IMG/VR virus record: IMGVR_UViG_3300037833_000006 | Location: 1-20,426 of that record | DNA: 20,426 nucleotides | Reading direction: 5' to 3' (one strand) | Source: a virus | Shown: piece after piece, positions 2,928 through 11,407 of the stretch | Layout of the letters: each line of letters starts with the position of its first letter | How positions within the stretch are numbered: position 1 is the stretch's first letter | Notes under the pieces: generated by a model | The model's database searches: none | What the model saw: the letters and a program-made list of their open reading frames with translations, nothing else | Told to the model about the DNA's origin: nothing | Program-made: the position numbers and the translations under genes

Positions 2928-4232
2928 ATGGCAACCACGCACGGACAGCGGATCAACGAGCTGAAAATCGGCCAGTCGATCGTGCTGGAGAAGATCCCCA
3001 GGGGTGGTTCCCTGGAGGCTCGCCGCCTTCAGTCCGGGGCCGTGCAGATGTACTGGCGCCATACGACCGCTGGCCGGACCGAGCGCCTGCCGATCGGACC
3101 TTACGACCCTCTCGCGCCGCCCAAGTCGCTGAGCCCGAGCACGCGAGGCTATTCGGTGGCGGCTGCTCTAGAAGCCGCACGGGAACATGCCAAGACGGAC
3201 AATGAAACTCCGGGCGGTCTGCGCGCCCAGCGCGAGCGCGAGAAGGCGGCAGCAGAAGCTGAGACCCGAAAGGCGACCGCTCGCCAGAGATATACGCTCC
3301 AAGCTCTCTGCGCCGACTACTGCGCCTGGTTGAAGAAGCAGGGGAAGGCCTCATACCGGGAAGCGCAGACGATCTTCAAGAACCACCTTCTCGAGGCACA
3401 CCCTGACTTGGCAGCAAAGCCGGCCGCGGAAGTGGAAAAGCGCGAGATTGTCACAGCCTTGCGGACGCTGACGGAGGCTGGCAAGTCGACTACCGCGCGA
3501 AAGCTGCGCTCCTATTTGCGAGCGGCCTACGTGTGTGCAGTGCGGGCTGACTCCGACGCAGCCCTGCCCTCCTCCTTCATCGGGTACCAGGTCACAACGA
3601 ATCCGGTCGAGAGCACGGCTGCGATCAAAATGCAGCCGGACAAGAACCCCCTGCCCTCACTAGATCTGAGGCACTACTGGAGTGCGCTCAAGGAGGAGGA
3701 CGGGGTAATTGGCGCCGCCTTGCGCCTGCACGTCCTCACTGGTGGGCAGCGCGCCGCTCAACTCACCCGCCTTCGTAGTGAGGACGTCTCTCCGGACACC
3801 CTGAAACTCCTGGATCCCAAGGGCAAGCGCAACGAACCACGCGCCCACTTGCTCCCGCTTACCCGCCCAATGCGCGCCGAGCTCGGAACCCTGCCGCAGC
3901 AGGGATTCATCCTTTCCACCGATGGCGGCAAGACGCCCATGCACGCGACCAGTCTGTCGACGTGGTCACGACCAGTGGCTGAACGAGCTGGGGTGAAGGG
4001 GTTTCAACTGAAGCGAGTGCGCAGCGGCATCGAGACGATCCTGGCCGAAGCGGGCATCCCTCTGCACATTCGCGGTCAGCTCCAGTCGCACGGCATCGGC
4101 GGAGTCCAGGAGCGCCACTATGACGCTCACGAATACCTGCAGGAAAAGCGCCAAGCGCTTGAAACTCTGTACGACCTTCTGGAGAACAAACCAGCGAAGA
4201 ACGTGAGGCCGCTGCGGGGGGCTACATCATGA
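2928..4232 (+). CDS. int: Tyrosine recombinase phage integrase
   Basis: This 434-residue site-specific recombinase should integrate and excise the element at the adjacent tRNA. The N-terminal 110 residues hold a DUF4102-like arm-binding region, residues about 120-210 the SAM-like core-binding domain, and the rest the catalytic domain. Catalytic residues I can place are Arg275 (GGQRAAQL), Arg365, His388 (QSHG) and the nucleophile Tyr398 (RHYD). The usual His of the HxxR box is Lys362 (KRVR), a substitution tolerated in some phage integrases. The ATG is preceded by AAGGGA at a short spacing. The gene reads away from the tRNA fragment and converges on the next gene. It is intact, so the element may still be mobile. 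Confidence 0.95.
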   Translation: MATTHGQRINELKIGQSIVLEKIPRGGSLEARRLQSGAVQMYWRHTTAGRTERLPIGPYDPLAPPKSLSPSTRGYSVAAALEAAREHAKTDNETPGGLRAQREREKAAAEAETRKATARQRYTLQALCADYCAWLKKQGKASYREAQTIFKNHLLEAHPDLAAKPAAEVEKREIVTALRTLTEAGKSTTARKLRSYLRAAYVCAVRADSDAALPSSFIGYQVTTNPVESTAAIKMQPDKNPLPSLDLRHYWSALKEEDGVIGAALRLHVLTGGQRAAQLTRLRSEDVSPDTLKLLDPKGKRNEPRAHLLPLTRPMRAELGTLPQQGFILSTDGGKTPMHATSLSTWSRPVAERAGVKGFQLKRVRSGIETILAEAGIPLHIRGQLQSHGIGGVQERHYDAHEYLQEKRQALETLYDLLENKPAKNVRPLRGATS

Positions 4233-4246
4233 TCTCCCGCCTACTC

Positions 4247-4687
4247 TCAGTCCCGTTGCAGCAGTTCCGTGTCGAAGCCAATGCCGGTGATCAGGCCGCT
4301 TCCATACCTAAGGCTCTGGAAGCTGCACGAGAAGTACCGCAGGCGATTCCCCGTCGCGAGCGCGAGAACCGTCCGGTACTCAGATGGGGACAGCGCCGCG
4401 GCAGCTTGGAGCACCAGCTTCGCCGACGTGATGGAGCCGATGGAGGCGATCTCCGCCCGGCCAACGGGTGGTTCTTCTTGTTCCCAGAGCTGCACGGAGA
4501 ACTTGGACACGCCCTTGATCGCTTCGGTGAACTCGCCGTGGACCATCAGGTACGTGTCGGCCTTACGGGTTCGCTCTCCCTTTGCATCGACAGCGTGAAC
4601 GTACAACTGGAGGGACCAATCCGTGATGGCGCCCTCCCGCGACAAGATGTCCCCCTTTGCACTCTTCCGGGCGGTCTTCTTCGGCAC
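4247..4687 (-). CDS. Hypothetical protein convergent with the integrase
   Basis: I do not recognise this 146-residue protein. It opens with a lysine-rich stretch (VPKKTARKSAKG) and continues with alternating hydrophobic segments suggestive of mixed beta structure, for example WSLQLYVHAVDAKG and KFSVQLWEQ, then LVLQAAAAL. There is no clear membrane segment or known motif. The GTG start at 4687 is chosen because GGAGGTG lies 5-6 bases upstream; the frame is open further, but that extension is low-complexity and cysteine-rich. The opposite-strand frame across the same stretch looks like a shadow. Its stop lies 14 bases from the integrase stop, and it diverges from the genes to its right. In this position temperate phages often carry lysogeny-expressed accessory genes. 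Confidence 0.65.
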   Translation of the reverse strand: MPKKTARKSAKGDILSREGAITDWSLQLYVHAVDAKGERTRKADTYLMVHGEFTEAIKGVSKFSVQLWEQEEPPVGRAEIASIGSITSAKLVLQAAAALSPSEYRTVLALATGNRLRYFSCSFQSLRYGSGLITGIGFDTELLQRD

Positions 4688-4853
4688 GACAACACCTCCG
4701 CAGGAAAGTAGAGAGGAGGCCTCCAACTGAATCCGCCGGCATTCGTCGGCACCGGCATCGCAGCGGATCTGCGGTAAAGAGGCGGTCGGACAAGGTGCGT
4801 CAACACCCAGCCCGACCTGACCACAGTGCACCTACTCTTAAAGGAACCGCACC

Positions 4854-5495: not shown

Positions 5496-6326
5496 ATGGC
5501 GAAGAGCGATGAGGGCAAGGAAAAGAAGCGCCACCCGTGGGAAGACATCCCGGATTTCACTATCTACTTCTATGACCCAGTGGCTAGCCTCTTCAGTGGC
5601 AACGAGAAGGCTTTCATTGACTACGAAGGTAAGCCTGTAATCGCACGAAAGGAAACGAAGCAGATTCTGGGCGTCGCTTCGGAGGCGGCGGATGTTTTGC
5701 TGCGCGAGCTCGATGTCACAGAAGTGACTTGGGAGGAGTGGAAGGATTTTCTCAAGGACACTCGAGCTTTCTTGAACTACGTGCGGGCGGACTTCCCGCT
5801 AGATCGCATCAAGTTCGTCAATGAAGCTGGGGAAGAAGTAGAGGCACCAGCGCGGCATGACATCTCCCCGTCACTAATTGCGACGTTTCTTGAAGAGTCA
5901 TCTGCCTTCCCGGATGCACCGGAGTCTCTAACTCCCTTGGTTCGACAGTTGTGGTGTCTGGTTTGTCTCACAAACGTAGACTCAGCCTTGCTCGCCCAGT
6001 TATACGAGGATGCGGGTGATGCTTTGGGCTCCTTCGCAGATGCGGCGGAGGCGCTCCGGAAAGCTCGCGGACCTGACGATCGCAACAGAAGCATGGCCAT
6101 TAAGGGGGCAATGGCGAGACTTGCCGCTGACCCAAAGCAGGCAGAAAAGCGCGCAGTTCGAGAATGCTGGGAGCTGTGGCGCCAAGACCCCGGCCGGTAC
6201 GACGGAAAGGCTGCTTTCGCAAGAGACATGCTTCACAAATTCGAGACGCTCCAGAGTGCGGTGGTCATAGAGCGCTGGTGCCGTGCTTGGGAGAGGGAGC
6301 TGGAGGAACGCAGTGGCAGAAGCTGA
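5496..6326 (+). CDS. Unknown protein A with shared C-terminal W/C-rich domain
   Basis: This 276-residue protein belongs to no family I recognise. It starts with a charged Lys/Glu segment, then IPDFTIYFYDPVAS and acidic helical segments rich in Glu, Asp and Trp. At residues 218-268 lies a compact module with the pattern VRxCWxxW, PxRY, FAxDML and VIxxWCRxW. The next gene's product ends with the same module (25 of 51 positions identical by my hand alignment). The start at 5496 has AGAGG 5 bases upstream. The last 14 bases overlap the next gene, implying coupled translation. Base composition is noticeably less GC-rich than in the head genes, which suits a recently acquired cassette. A defence or superinfection-exclusion role is only a guess. 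Confidence 0.7.
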   Translation: MAKSDEGKEKKRHPWEDIPDFTIYFYDPVASLFSGNEKAFIDYEGKPVIARKETKQILGVASEAADVLLRELDVTEVTWEEWKDFLKDTRAFLNYVRADFPLDRIKFVNEAGEEVEAPARHDISPSLIATFLEESSAFPDAPESLTPLVRQLWCLVCLTNVDSALLAQLYEDAGDALGSFADAAEALRKARGPDDRNRSMAIKGAMARLAADPKQAEKRAVRECWELWRQDPGRYDGKAAFARDMLHKFETLQSAVVIERWCRAWERELEERSGRS

Positions 6327-7209
6327 CCAAGAGAAGGCCGATTTCTACCGCTTGAACGACGAGGCCCTCGCCGACGCGCGCGCACAGGCTGTCGACGAAG
6401 TGCTTAAGTTGTCGCTCCCATCCATCATCAATCTACCGAAGAAAATCTCAGGCCTAGGCTTTCGTATTGGGGCCGCCTACGCCCATGCTTATGAGCGACT
6501 CGCACATCTGGGGCAGTTGCTTCCCTCCTTGTTCGCACTCGCGAACATGGAGTTCTGCCTATCTGCTACTCAGGGTGCCTTGTGGTACCGCTACGCGATA
6601 CAAAAGGGCGTAGTCGCTGACTCTCCGGAGATGTGTCTGCGGGCGTCGGCCGAGGGCTACCTGATCTCAGAGGGGCGGGCTTGGACGTTCTACAACAAGC
6701 TGGGTGAGACCACCTCCAACACCATGCTTGCCCGGTTTGAACGAGGCGAAGAGCTGCGCAGGGCTGCAACAGATCAAGTTCTCCTCCGCTGCATGGGCCT
6801 GTACTGGTTACACGATGCGTCCTTGATGGACGGAGAAGACAGGTTGAACCTGGTCTACGAAGGCCTCGATGCGCTTGATTTGGCTGACGGGCTTGCGATG
6901 TGGGATGACGCTTATGAACTTGGCAAGTCAGACGCTATCAACGACCCGGCCACTTTGGCCAAGCTTCGATCGGTAAGTGGAAAAGCAGGAGCAGAGCAGC
7001 GCGTTCGGAAGGACCCGCGGACGCAGGCAAAGTCCTTTGTTAGAAGCTGCTGGGACGATTGGCAGCAGCATCCAGCGCGATATATGAGCACCGCTCAATT
7101 CGCCCAGGACATGCTCGAGAAGCAGCCTGTTCTTCGGAACGCCGCCGTAATCGCCACCTGGTGCCGGGACTGGAAGAAAGGAGCGCTGTCCCCAAAGGAC
7201 TATCAGTGA
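6313..7209 (+). CDS. Unknown protein B with shared C-terminal W/C-rich domain
   Basis: This 298-residue protein has no family I recognise. The N-terminal 240 residues are mostly helical and unlike protein A: an amphipathic stretch (VLKLSLPSIINLPKKISGLGF), then ALWYRYAIQKGVV and LRCMGLYWLHDASL. Residues 240-290 repeat the module of protein A, with CWDDW, HPARY, FAQDML and VIATWCRDW. I chose GTG at 6313 because GGAGG sits 6 bases upstream; an ATG at 6283 would make a 44-base overlap with poorer ribosome-site support. The pair probably acts together: the shared tail could mediate dimerisation or binding to a common target. A hairpin and a T-rich stretch follow the stop. Confidence 0.7.
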   Translation: MAEADQEKADFYRLNDEALADARAQAVDEVLKLSLPSIINLPKKISGLGFRIGAAYAHAYERLAHLGQLLPSLFALANMEFCLSATQGALWYRYAIQKGVVADSPEMCLRASAEGYLISEGRAWTFYNKLGETTSNTMLARFERGEELRRAATDQVLLRCMGLYWLHDASLMDGEDRLNLVYEGLDALDLADGLAMWDDAYELGKSDAINDPATLAKLRSVSGKAGAEQRVRKDPRTQAKSFVRSCWDDWQQHPARYMSTAQFAQDMLEKQPVLRNAAVIATWCRDWKKGALSPKDYQ

Positions 7210-7217
7210 GCCGGCTG

Positions 7218-7247
7218 GGTGAGCATGCAGCGGGCTGAGTGCTCACC
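7218..7247 (+). terminator. Inverted repeat after the two-gene cassette
   Basis: GGTGAGCA (7218-7225) and TGCTCACC (7240-7247) form perfect 8-bp arms around 14 bases that hold a nested CAGC/GCTG. A second small palindrome, GAGC/GCTC, follows at about 7248-7257, then a T-rich stretch (CTTTGCTTTG). It may be a weak or factor-assisted terminator at the end of the cassette, or an operator. The lack of an uninterrupted T run keeps this uncertain. Confidence 0.4.
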
Positions 7248-7305
7248 GAGCGGGCTCGCTGATCTGTTCCTTTGCTTTGTTCACCTGAATACTTCATCCA
7301 ACGCA

Positions 7306-7323
7306 ATGCGCACCTGTGCGCAT
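7306..7323. promoter_or_regulatory. Perfect 8-bp-arm palindrome upstream of the AlpA-like gene
   Basis: ATGCGCAC and GTGCGCAT are exact inverted repeats separated by only CT. The 18-bp site ends 22 bases before the AlpA-like start, where an operator for a dimeric repressor would block transcription. It is the only near-perfect palindrome in the 7210-7345 gap apart from the hairpin after the cassette. Autoregulation by the AlpA-like protein or control by an unidentified repressor is inference. Confidence 0.5.
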
Positions 7324-7345: not shown

Positions 7346-7555
7346 ATGGTCAAGAATCTTCGTCCCCGTGAAGCTGCCGACGCTCTTGGCGTCGGGCTCT
7401 CAACCTTCTGGCTGAAGGCCAAGACGGATCCTGACTTCCCACCGCTGATCAAGCTGGGGCCGAAAGCCACAGTGGTCCGCGAAGCGGATCTCGCCGCCTA
7501 CGTCGACAAAAAAGCGAAGGCCTCCGCCGAAGAGCGCGCCGCACTGAGGGCGTGA
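7346..7555 (+). CDS. AlpA/excisionase-like DNA-binding regulator
   Basis: This 69-residue protein has the winged-helix pattern of AlpA/MerR-type excisionase-like proteins: LRPREAADALGVGLSTFW (helix-turn-helix), the proline-rich turn DPDFPPLIKLGPKATVV (wing), then EADLAAYVDKK. Such proteins bind att DNA to direct excision or activate integrase genes. The ATG at 7346 has GGAG upstream; longer versions start at 7316 but would read through the palindrome. It lies more than 3 kb from the integrase, which is less usual for a dedicated excisionase, so a regulatory role is also possible. Its stop overlaps the next reading frame (TGATG). Confidence 0.8.
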   Translation: MVKNLRPREAADALGVGLSTFWLKAKTDPDFPPLIKLGPKATVVREADLAAYVDKKAKASAEERAALRA

Positions 7556-7820: not shown

Positions 7821-7900
7821 GAGGCTGCAGGTGTAGGACGCGGCTTACTCTTGTCAGCCCAGGCAGACACAGCAGGATGCATCCCGGAGGGGCAAGCCCG

Positions 7901-8884
7901 ATGACTGGCGTTCTCGATGCGCGTCTGTCGACGCGCTTCACCAACCATCCCAAGACGTTGAAGCTGGTTCGCCGGCTGGGCCCTGCCGGCGGATGGCACT
8001 TGGTGTGCCTGATTCTCTGGACCGCCGCGAATAAGCCCGATGGTGATCTGCAGGGCCTGTCCGCTGAGGACATCGAGATTGCCTGCGGGTGGATGGGCGA
8101 GCCAGAGTTGTTGGTCGCCGCACTGAGGGACCTACGCTTCCTGGATGGTGATGCGGGTAGCTACCGTCTTCACGACTGGACCGAGCACCAGCCCTGGGCA
8201 ACCGGCGCGGAGGCACGTAGCGAGCGCGGACGCTGGGCGGGTCTATGCAGCAAGCTTGGTCGTGCCGAAGCAGAAAGGCTGATGCCCGAGTACTCGGCTA
8301 AGGTGAAAGCGAAGGAAGCGTCGACGAGTAGTCAACATCCGGTCGCCCCTGTGCCGACGGGCAGTCAACCAGCAGTCCAACAGGTCGTTGGAATCGGTTC
8401 AACCCCGTCTCCGTCTCCGTCTCCGTCTCCAAATACCCCCCTATCCCCCCAAGGGGGGCAGACAGTGGGATCAGCCAAGCCGGCAGTACCCGGTGACGAC
8501 GATCCGCTGTTCATCGCGTTCTACGGCGCCTATCCGCGCAAGACCCAGCGAGCGGCAGCGTGGAGGGCCTGGCGGGCGCTCAAGCCCGATGCGGCCCTGC
8601 TGCACGACATGCTCGCCGGCTTGGCGAAGTGGCAGGCGCACGAGCGATGGACCCGCGAGAGCGGCCGCTTCGTGCACATCCCGTCAACGTGGCTCAACCA
8701 ACGGCTTTGGGAGGACGAGGAGGTCTGCGGCCGGTCGCAATCGGGAACTGCAGGAACCGTTCCGGAGTGGGTCACCCGTGCCGGGTTCGAGAACGAGGCG
8801 CATGCGGCGAATCTCCGCTGCTACGCCCACAACGCCTCCGAGTTCCGGGACGGCAGACGGATCCCGGCGGAGGCCGCAGCGTGA
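7901..8884 (+). CDS. Phage replication initiator protein
   Basis: This 327-residue protein has the two-part layout of phage replication initiators. Residues 1-105 look like a winged-helix DNA-binding domain (RFTNHPKTLKLVRRLG, LSAEDIEIACGW, LRDLRFLDGDAGSYRLHDW). A polar linker with a Pro-Ser repeat follows, then a C-terminal domain (FIAFYGAYPRKTQRAAAWRAWRAL, FVHIPSTWLNQRLWED) of the kind that loads a helicase. I chose ATG 7901 over 7877 because GGAGGGG precedes it. Its stop overlaps the GTG of the primase-helicase (GTGA), so the two are coupled. By analogy with lambda O the origin may lie inside this gene. Confidence 0.75.
   Translation: MTGVLDARLSTRFTNHPKTLKLVRRLGPAGGWHLVCLILWTAANKPDGDLQGLSAEDIEIACGWMGEPELLVAALRDLRFLDGDAGSYRLHDWTEHQPWATGAEARSERGRWAGLCSKLGRAEAERLMPEYSAKVKAKEASTSSQHPVAPVPTGSQPAVQQVVGIGSTPSPSPSPSPNTPLSPQGGQTVGSAKPAVPGDDDPLFIAFYGAYPRKTQRAAAWRAWRALKPDAALLHDMLAGLAKWQAHERWTRESGRFVHIPSTWLNQRLWEDEEVCGRSQSGTAGTVPEWVTRAGFENEAHAANLRCYAHNASEFRDGRRIPAEAAA
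8405..8458 (+). repeat. Hexanucleotide repeat and C6-AA-G6 palindrome inside the initiator gene
   Basis: CCGTCT is repeated four times in tandem (8405-8428), encoding Pro-Ser repeats in the linker. Sixteen bases later CCCCCC-AA-GGGGGG (8445-8458) forms a perfect inverted repeat. AGTCAAC occurs at 8330-8336 and 8363-8369, with a variant at 8374-8381. Such clustered repeats in an initiator linker are candidates for iterons; simple low-complexity linker coding is the alternative. Confidence 0.5.
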
Positions 8885-10668
8885 ACGCGAAGGAACTGTC
8901 CCAGCGCCTTGCAGCCCAGGCCGAGGGCGTCGCCCAGTACCTGCTGCCGGCCGGCAAACGCAAGGGACGTGAGTGGAAGGTCGGAAGCACGGAAGGCGAG
9001 GAAGGCGGAAGTCTGTCCGTCTGCCTCACGGGGCACAAGGCCGGTGTCTGGTCGGACTTCGCAAAAGGCACCGGAGGGGACCTCCTGGACCTGTGGATTG
9101 CCACTCGCGGGCTGACACTGCCGGACGCCATGAGGGCGGCTCAGGACTACCTCGGCATCCGCGACACGATGCCCGCCAACGCGCCGCAGCCCAGGACGTA
9201 CCAACGCCCGCAGAAGCCGAAGTGCCGAACTCCAAAGTCACGGGTGCGGGAATGGCTGAATGGCCGCGGGATACGCGACGAAACGATCGCGGAGTTCAAG
9301 GTCGGTGAACAGGAGCGCGGAGAAGGCGCTGCCTACGCAGTCTTCCCGTTCATGCGTGACGGCGAAGTCGTGAACGTGAAGTACCGCAACCCCGACGACA
9401 AGCGGGACATGCGGCAGGAAAAAGGTGCAGAGCCGTGCCTCTTCGGATGGCACTTAATCGACCCGAAGCAGCGCCGCATCGTGATCTGCGAGGGTGAGAT
9501 TGACGCCATGACGGTGCACCAGGTCGGATTGCCTGCGTTGTCTGTGAACCAGGGTGCGGGCAATCACCAGTGGATCGAATCTGACTGGGAGCGGCTGGAG
9601 CGCTTCAGCGACATCCTGGTGTGCTTCGACAACGACGAAGCCGGTGACAAAGGGGCCGTCGAGGTCATGAAGCGCCTCGGGCTCGAGCGCTGCCGGCGCA
9701 TGCGAGTTGGCGCCAAGGATGCGAACCAGTGGCTGCAAGACGGCGCTGCAGGGCCCGACTTCCACGGTGCGGCAGACGATGCCAAGGCGCTCGACCCGGA
9801 GGAGCTGTGCTCGATCGCCGACTTCGAGGCCGCCCTCATCGAGAGCTTCTACCCGCCTGAAGGTGCGCGTCGTGACCCGAATCTGCGGCTAGACATCGAC
9901 TTCGACTGGTTCGACTTCCGAGGTGGCGAGGTCACGTTGTGGACTGGCATCAACGGCCACGGCAAGAGCCTGCTCCTGTCACAGGTTCAGCTCGGGCTGA
10001 TGCAACAGGGTGCCCGCTTCACCATCTTCTCCGGGGAGCTGAAGCCAGCCAAGCAGTTGAAGCGCATGGCGAAGCAGGCGTCTGGCCTCGACCGACCGAC
10101 CATTCCGTACCTGCGCGCCATTGCATCCTGGCTGCGCGGGCAGTGCTGGGTCTTCGATCACCTGGGAACTGCGAGGCTGGATCGGCTGATCGAGGTCTTC
10201 ACATACGCCCACCGCCGCTATGGGTGCGACCACTTCGTCATCGACAGCCTCATGACGACCGACGTTCCCGACGACGGCCCCAAGGCCAATACCGCTCAGA
10301 AAGAGGCGGTGGCCAAGCTATGCGCCTTTGCCAAGCGGTTCAACGTGCATGTGCACCTGGTGGCCCATCCTCGCAAAGCACGCGACGAGAGCGCCAGCCC
10401 CGGGAAGATGGACGTCGCCGGCAGCGGCCACATCACCAACGGCGTCGACAACATCTTCTCCGTCTGGAAGGCGAAGAAGGACGAGGCGCGGCCGGAAGAC
10501 GACGGCAGCCTGGACGCCAAGCTGGAGCTCATGAAGCAGCGGGAGGACGGGGTGCAGAACTTCACCCTGCAGCTCTGGTTCAACAAGGCATCCATGCAGT
10601 ACCGAAGCAGCCCGCGCTGGCGTCCTCTGTCCTATGTTCACTTTTCGGCCGAGGAGGTGAGCGCATGA
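8881..10668 (+). CDS. Toprim primase-helicase (DnaB/gp4-like)
   Basis: This 595-residue protein combines primer synthesis and helicase activity for phage DNA replication. The N-terminus has the phage primase signature VWSDFAKGTGGDLLDLW; no cysteine quartet for a zinc finger is seen. The Toprim domain shows the catalytic glutamate in CEGEID (Glu204) and the DxD pair in FDNDEAGD (Asp250, Asp252). The RecA-like helicase domain follows: Walker A GINGHGKS (356-363), Walker B HFVIDSL, then HLVAHPRK and a sensor-like GSGHITNGVDN. The GTG at 8881 overlaps the initiator stop and follows GGAGG; earlier in-frame starts would read through the initiator gene. It likely works with the upstream initiator at the phage origin. 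Confidence 0.9.
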   Translation: MNAKELSQRLAAQAEGVAQYLLPAGKRKGREWKVGSTEGEEGGSLSVCLTGHKAGVWSDFAKGTGGDLLDLWIATRGLTLPDAMRAAQDYLGIRDTMPANAPQPRTYQRPQKPKCRTPKSRVREWLNGRGIRDETIAEFKVGEQERGEGAAYAVFPFMRDGEVVNVKYRNPDDKRDMRQEKGAEPCLFGWHLIDPKQRRIVICEGEIDAMTVHQVGLPALSVNQGAGNHQWIESDWERLERFSDILVCFDNDEAGDKGAVEVMKRLGLERCRRMRVGAKDANQWLQDGAAGPDFHGAADDAKALDPEELCSIADFEAALIESFYPPEGARRDPNLRLDIDFDWFDFRGGEVTLWTGINGHGKSLLLSQVQLGLMQQGARFTIFSGELKPAKQLKRMAKQASGLDRPTIPYLRAIASWLRGQCWVFDHLGTARLDRLIEVFTYAHRRYGCDHFVIDSLMTTDVPDDGPKANTAQKEAVAKLCAFAKRFNVHVHLVAHPRKARDESASPGKMDVAGSGHITNGVDNIFSVWKAKKDEARPEDDGSLDAKLELMKQREDGVQNFTLQLWFNKASMQYRSSPRWRPLSYVHFSAEEVSA

Positions 10669-11023: not shown

Positions 11024-11407
11024 TCAGGTGCGGCGATAGATCGCGTGGTTATCACTCCGGCGTCGGACCCAGACGGCGAGACCGCCGCCTTCCACCGCTT
11101 TCCTGAACCTCTTGCCGAGTTGCTTTCGGTCCCCAGAGGACAGGGCCAGCCACGAATTCCGGGGGCAGACATCGAAGAGGAGGAACTCCTCGCCGGACGG
11201 AACCAACCGAGCTTTTTCCACCGAGAGAGTCACCAATTCATCCAGGATGTCAGTGGAGACCGTGATAGGACCGTCTTCTCCGTCGTCGTCCGGAAGGGCT
11301 TTGGCGATCGCGTCCAGAACGAAGTCCGAGAAAGCCATCTTCCTGTCGAAAGCGGCACCCAGGGCAGAAGCAAGCTGAGCTTCGGGGAGGTCGATGATGA
11401 GTTGCAT
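11024..11407 (-). CDS. RHH-like/DUF1413-like small regulator
   Basis: This 127-residue protein is read against its neighbours. Residues 1-38 (QLIIDLP strand, a helix, then FSDFVLDAIAKAL) fit the ribbon-helix-helix fold of dimeric DNA-binding proteins such as antitoxins. The C-terminal half (FLLFDVCPRNSWLALSSGDRKQLGKRFRKAV, ending SDNHAIYRR) resembles the DUF1413 pattern, in which a small globular domain ends in a conserved Asn-Tyr-Arg tail. I am fairly sure of the coding strand because the promoter, operators and AAGGA ribosome site all fit; the opposite-strand frame looks like a shadow. It may repress its own promoter. It could be a moron gene expressed in the lysogen; no toxin partner is visible. 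Confidence 0.75.
   Translation of the reverse strand: MQLIIDLPEAQLASALGAAFDRKMAFSDFVLDAIAKALPDDDGEDGPITVSTDILDELVTLSVEKARLVPSGEEFLLFDVCPRNSWLALSSGDRKQLGKRFRKAVEGGGLAVWVRRRSDNHAIYRRT

Follow-up and report, generated by a model that had tools for sequence, protein, structure and literature searches.

The Stl/Rpr proteins of SaPIs and Gram-positive PICIs are modular master repressors in which a DNA-binding domain is joined to domains that bind helper-phage inducers (PMC6695447). In E. coli PICIs, the cycle is activated by AlpA and alpA is the switch gene (PMC6092414). The locus described here lies in a stretch of viral DNA of 20,426 nucleotides (IMG/VR record IMGVR_UViG_3300037833_000006; "the window" throughout) and contains two overlapping genes, A and B, whose products end in a shared C-terminal domain, the tail. 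These proteins look like members of an undescribed family of regulators in temperate phages and capsid-carrying satellites. As with Stl/Rpr (PMC6695447), a modular protein is encoded by the element beside its excision/replication operon, and for this protein we infer DNA binding and sensing. Stl, however, has an N-terminal cI/Cro (XRE)-type helix-turn-helix and is divergent from xis, whereas in the tail family the conserved domain is C-terminal, there is no HTH_3 match in the window, and alpA is read from the same strand as the tail genes; the family is therefore not classed as Stl, and no sequence relation between the two was found. The elements resemble AlpA-controlled Gram-negative PICIs (PMC6092414) in having an integrase, alpA, and replication genes, and an AlpA-type gene does lie near the integrase (PF05930 in six loci, with the window gene below threshold). 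Unlike those PICIs, they are betaproteobacterial where named, and several have capsid genes. Neither the tail family nor the DNA array described below was found in PMC6092414, and the literature searched, the coverage of which was incomplete, yielded no description of either.

Genes A and B and their shared C-terminal domain

The two genes and the domain common to their products are as follows.

5496..6326, + strand: gene A, ATG 5496, TGA 6326, 276 codons; A-type body and shared tail
6313..7209, + strand: gene B, GTG 6313, TGA 7209, 298 codons; unique body and shared tail
6093..6299, + strand: tail domain of A, residues 200-268; profile A5 match at E ~1e-34; predicted to be three-helix and helix-turn-helix-like
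6979..7182, + strand: tail domain of B, residues 223-290; profile A5 match; AlphaFold2 pLDDT 91-98

BLASTP of A against B gives a single significant segment with 42 of 102 residues identical (E=1e-17), which confirms the C-terminal module proposed in a sequence-only reading of this DNA, and comparison of the remaining sequence agrees with that reading in finding the bodies unrelated. The module is longer than the 51 residues then assigned to it, comprising approximately 70 residues and starting near G-A-x-x-R-x-x-x-D-P. Within a 56-residue core, the two tails have 48% identity as protein and 54% at the DNA level, and of the 22 identical residues for which synonymous codons are available, 14 are encoded differently, indicating that the relationship is old and not the result of a recent duplication. 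The genes overlap by 14 bp, with GGAGG about 8 nt before the start of B, and the overlap supports the translational coupling that had been suggested. The GC contents of A (0.56) and B (0.58) are, as previously noted, lower than those of the head genes (0.66-0.69); that of the integrase gene is 0.63.

Neither A nor B has a match above cut-offs in Pfam, NCBIfam, PHROGs, or PADLOC, a match in PADLOC at up to E=5, or a helix-turn-helix match among Pfam families; weak and partial matches to FANCM and HAD were discarded. A tblastn search of 50,697 phage records with A, B, and two A-type relatives gave no match, a plasmid search found no relatives, and searches of viral contigs with A or B alone were empty. 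The tail by itself gave one match in the same phage records (tblastn), at chance level.

In the AlphaFold2 model of A, the tail has pLDDT values of 94-98 and helices at residues 213-230, 238-248, and 255-274. The tail is thus confidently predicted to be a three-helix unit, and its last pair of helices may be read as helix-turn-helix-like. The domain is absent from Pfam, NCBIfam, PHROGs, PADLOC, and PDB sequences, profile A5 itself detecting no relative in Pfam or PDB sequences. Fold searches with the predicted structures of A and B returned generic helical bundles and no convincing PDB match; the best fold match of the tail, to a winged-helix-like part of cullin-2 (Z ~5), is too weak for use. 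The body of A is predicted to be a helical bundle with no clear relative, and neither body has a match in Pfam, PADLOC, or the PDB.

Distribution of the tail and its N-terminal bodies

Relatives are detectable only by tail alignments or a tail consensus. A two-row tail alignment led to one viral contig, and the consensus followed by a nine-row alignment led to about ten further loci and to nine genome loci. Profile A5, built from 19 tail rows, was searched in sampled genomes and found in 4 of 399 genomes of a Burkholderia-centred order sample, 3 of 369 of a class sample, 5 of 125 and 3 of 199 of two family samples, and 12 of 398 of the family at the Burkholderia centre. The tail domain was found in 32 proteins beyond A and B. 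Named hosts are all betaproteobacteria (Nitrosovibrio, Nitrosomonas, Burkholderia, Paraburkholderia, Massilia, Advenella, and Thauera), and where hosts are named the carriers are prophages or satellites. Many of the loci are short or draft, and they include the near-duplicates L013/L014, L047/L049, and L006/L008. An apparently decayed tail gene is present among insertion-sequence-like genes in L041 (514-aa frame, around 1486-1733).

The 34 N-terminal bodies, of 87-303 residues, represent 26 types in phmmer comparisons at E<1e-3, a number that depends on this threshold. The A-type body has six members (A of the window, L013, L014, L019, L021, and L037) and a weak seventh candidate in L051 (E=0.004), and the body of B is unique among the 34 proteins. 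Pairwise profile comparison of the bodies revealed no hidden common body.

The sequence-only reading had regarded A and B as a pair and proposed a profile search with the module to see which bodies it joins and whether pairs recur. Many bodies are joined to the tail, but the pair does not recur. Single tail genes are present in about 30 of the 32 loci, and two consecutive tail genes occur only in the window and L019 (2 of about 32 loci); in L019, the gene with a non-A body comes first and is followed, with a 4-bp overlap, by the A-type gene, the reverse of the order in the window. Recurring partner genes, as expected of a toxin-antitoxin system, were thus not found, the two pairs differing in both partners and order. 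Sharing of the tail is thus general but the pair is not the unit; the A-B pair was rejected as a functional unit because pairs are rare. With pairs rare and no PADLOC match, the suggestion of a two-part defence, exclusion, or toxin-antitoxin system is not upheld.

A phased palindromic array at the 3' ends of tail genes

Hairpins had been described on both sides of the two genes. The one on the 3' side is strong, whereas that on the 5' side is weak, having 9-nt arms that are 37 nt apart. The 3' feature contains the following elements, for which no strand is assigned.

7202..7263: inverted repeat at the B stop codon, forming an operator-like array; 30-nt arms, 83% complementary
7214-7231 and 7234-7251: two 18-bp palindromic sites at a 20-bp step; model R1 match at 7209-7256

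The unit of the array is the palindrome GCAnAGTGCGCACTnTGC; there are usually two or three copies, one every 20 bp. EM applied to the 90 nt that follow each tail gene yielded a motif with a log-likelihood of 195 as compared with 62-74 for dinucleotide shuffles. Of the 32 loci, 28 have their best motif match, as judged with leave-one-out matrices over the whole locus, between -45 and +65 relative to the tail stop; L013, L014, L044, and L052 are the exceptions. Neighbouring strong sites are nearly always 19-21 bp apart and mostly exactly 20 bp, equivalent to two helical turns. R1, a sequence-only model of the array trained on 15 loci, gave 51 matches (E<=1) over the 32 loci (258 kb), all of them at the 3' ends of tail genes and including the untrained loci L003, L005, L007, L023, L032, L044, and L049. 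In 398 Burkholderiaceae genomes, R1 matches at E<1e-3 adjoin tail genes with one exception (G386), which lies inside a chromosomal coding gene and was dismissed as chance; since most array loci in these genomes belong to the training set or are close to it, what this test chiefly demonstrates is that the array is absent elsewhere. In L013 and L014, where an A-type gene is accompanied by an S24 CI repressor, the array is degenerate. Some arrays are followed by T-runs, but there is no T-run after the last unit in many, including those of the window, L004, L006, L008, L042, and L047.

A second perfect palindrome, ATGCGCAC-CT-GTGCGCAT, is present at 7306-7323 of the window, just upstream of the alpA start. 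It may serve as a regulatory site distinct from the array, perhaps one for AlpA.

Relationship of the array to the tail gene and to alpA

In these loci, the integrase gene is usually followed by small ORFs, then the tail gene, an AlpA-type gene, and replication genes. The corresponding genes of the window are listed here.

2928..4232, + strand: integrase gene; clusters with the integrases that precede tail genes in related loci
7346..7555, + strand: AlpA/excisionase-type helix-turn-helix gene, starting 94 bp past the last array site
7877..8884, + strand: gene for a replication initiation protein, situated downstream of alpA; phrog_9474, E=5e-34
8842..10668, + strand: primase/helicase gene; phrog_239, E=7e-119

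Integrase domains were confirmed with Pfam in the L004 member of the integrase cluster. The AlpA-type gene of the window matches PF05930 at E=0.0013 and 19 bits, under the cut-off of 21, and matches a profile of the AlpA genes of other loci at E=3.9e-5 in a one-sequence search. The earlier placement of A and B between an integrase and an excisionase-like gene is therefore correct, with an AlpA match in the window that is below the Pfam cut-off. PF05930 matches above the cut-off follow the array in L003, L006, L021, L023, L050, and L051, and an AlpA gene is downstream in 25 of 32 loci by a local AlpA profile that includes the window's own gene. At L051 53-706 (- strand), the tail gene adjoins a serine resolvase/invertase gene (PF00239, E=8e-38), not a tyrosine integrase gene.

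As a control, every AlpA locus (n=28, in 3-kb stretches) was examined in 15 genomes that have the tail. Each of the 8 that have a tail gene, two of which share one array, has strong palindromic sites (scores 16.7-24.0), and six of these also match R1 at E<0.1. The other 20, with no tail gene in the stretch, gave 0 R1 matches and best matrix scores of 3.8-15.1. Conversely, the array is present and an AlpA gene was not detected in L005, L028, L047, and L049. These two observations indicate that the array goes with the tail, and the possibility that it belongs to AlpA was rejected by this control.

The distance from the array end to the alpA start has a median of 87.5 bp (IQR 82-103) and is 71-106 bp in most loci. 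Measured from the tail stop, the array is found anywhere between -17 and +82, and its position correlates with that of the alpA start (rho=0.60, p=0.005, n=20); the alpA starts were assigned from a Shine-Dalgarno-like match preceding them, in part manually. The near-fixed distance and the correlation amount to the geometry of an operator for alpA. No array was found at the tail gene's own promoter, and autoregulation is not evident.

Proposed function and alternatives

We give slightly better than an even chance to an arrangement in which the tail binds the array as an operator and A and B are modular proteins that regulate, and probably repress, alpA and replication. The tail of A and B would be a DNA-binding domain that recognizes the 20-bp-phased palindromic array, which lies some 87 bp ahead of alpA's start codon. 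In the integrated state, the array-bound protein would repress alpA and so keep the excision-replication operon (alpA, rep, and primase) off, and the variable N-terminal bodies would be oligomerization or sensor domains that release the array upon different inducers, such as helper-phage proteins. The variety of bodies most likely reflects the sensing of different inducers or the making of different contacts; in the window, two proteins with different bodies would act on one array, and either could answer its own signal. Because AlpA activates the E. coli PICI cycle, a protein bound at the array would govern the switch. The common partner previously postulated for the tail is retained, although it appears to be DNA, namely the phased array upstream of alpA. 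The sequence-only reading would have been abandoned had a profile search placed the proteins in a regulatory family; no known family was found, yet the genomic evidence is regulatory, and it is from this evidence that we infer binding, repression as its sign, and sensing by the bodies.

The grounds for preferring repression over activation are circumstantial. No HTH_3 or S24 repressor was found, using these two Pfam families, in the window or in the possibly incomplete records G012, G013, G015, G016, and G017; the two A-type elements that have a CI repressor have a degenerate array; and AlpA is itself an activator, the silence of which needs explaining. Against the regulatory role, a DNA-binding domain that is conserved across elements predicts cross-immunity between them, unlike most phage repressors. 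Also counting against it, the tail matches no Pfam helix-turn-helix family and no PDB fold with confidence, the promoter of the tail gene has no array, and the AlpA match in the window is sub-threshold. More tentatively, and at somewhat less than an even chance, the proteins would constitute a new family of master switches in which one C-terminal address domain and its operator array are used across heterologous elements with at least 26 swapped sensor types. Elements with different inducers would then obey one operator code, the window would stack two sensors per operator, and the swapped bodies would represent a collection of inducer sensors that conflict between phages and satellites has shaped. 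The tail and array form a searchable signature, consisting of a 70-residue profile and a 20-bp array, and define a candidate operator.

The tail might bind the array as a replication, partition, or excision accessory (iteron-like, centromere-like, or as a directionality factor helping AlpA or the integrase) and not as a transcriptional repressor. The 20-bp phased repeats do resemble iterons and the neighbours are integrase, AlpA, rep, and primase genes, but 26 body types fit poorly with a fixed role in replication or partition, the elements already encode rep and primase, and the near-fixed distance of the array from the alpA start is operator-like; we consider such a role unlikely. It is quite unlikely that the proteins are moron-type defence or exclusion effectors in which the bodies act and the tail and array only co-regulate. 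Consistent with effectors, the bodies are variable, their GC content is low, and the A-type genes of L013 and L014 directly follow a gene for a CI-type repressor with a YdaS-like helix-turn-helix and Peptidase S24 (4745-5413 in L013 and 4705-5415 in L014), which is the place of rexAB in lambda cI-rexAB. This likeness is one of position, and most members of the tail family are not so placed; moreover, the bodies are without PADLOC, Pfam, or PDB matches, pairs are rare, and an operator-like array is conserved and tied to alpA.

A similarly small chance is assigned to the array being bound by AlpA, or being a mere intrinsic terminator, with some other function for the tail. The array adjoins alpA in most loci, AlpA of an E. 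coli PICI activates its own expression (PMC6092414), and T-runs follow some arrays; the AlpA control loci that lack a tail gene nevertheless have no array, four loci have arrays and no detected AlpA, and the many arrays with no T-run, together with the 20-bp phasing and sequence conservation, are unlike a terminator. That the tail-coding segment and array are a recombination unit for exchanging bodies, conserved as a recombination target, is very improbable. One 3' block with many 5' bodies recalls gene cassettes, but the tail proteins are only ~50% identical and the array is conserved beyond that, its phasing and its spacing from alpA suggest that a protein binds there, and no recombinase specific to the array was seen.

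Host elements and neighbouring genes

The 12.6-kb L006/L095 record contains integrase, tail, alpA, major capsid, protease, portal, HNH, TerS, TerL, Hc1, and Ad1 genes and no phage-tail genes. With its capsid, portal, terminase, and connector genes, it presumably resembles the capsid-forming PICIs (cfPICI). The window differs from this record in the order of its head genes and in having a minor-tail-like gene (phrog_1924), and the stretch is cut at its right end.

The other window genes noted here lie on the - strand. An apparently coding ORF with no family match (4247-4690) is convergent with the integrase gene, and a lone gene between the replication and head genes (11024-11407) matches DUF1413 at E=7e-7. 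The left flank (3-1253 and 1171-2648) has UvrD-like helicase and Ser/Thr kinase-like genes, the former with a PADLOC match to NERD+UvrD (E=3e-21, GajB-like) and the latter with one to PD-T4-6 (E=2e-19). The kinase-like gene is split into two overlapping frames near 2178-2283, through either a frameshift or a sequencing error, and the kinase and helicase are a possible defence pair.
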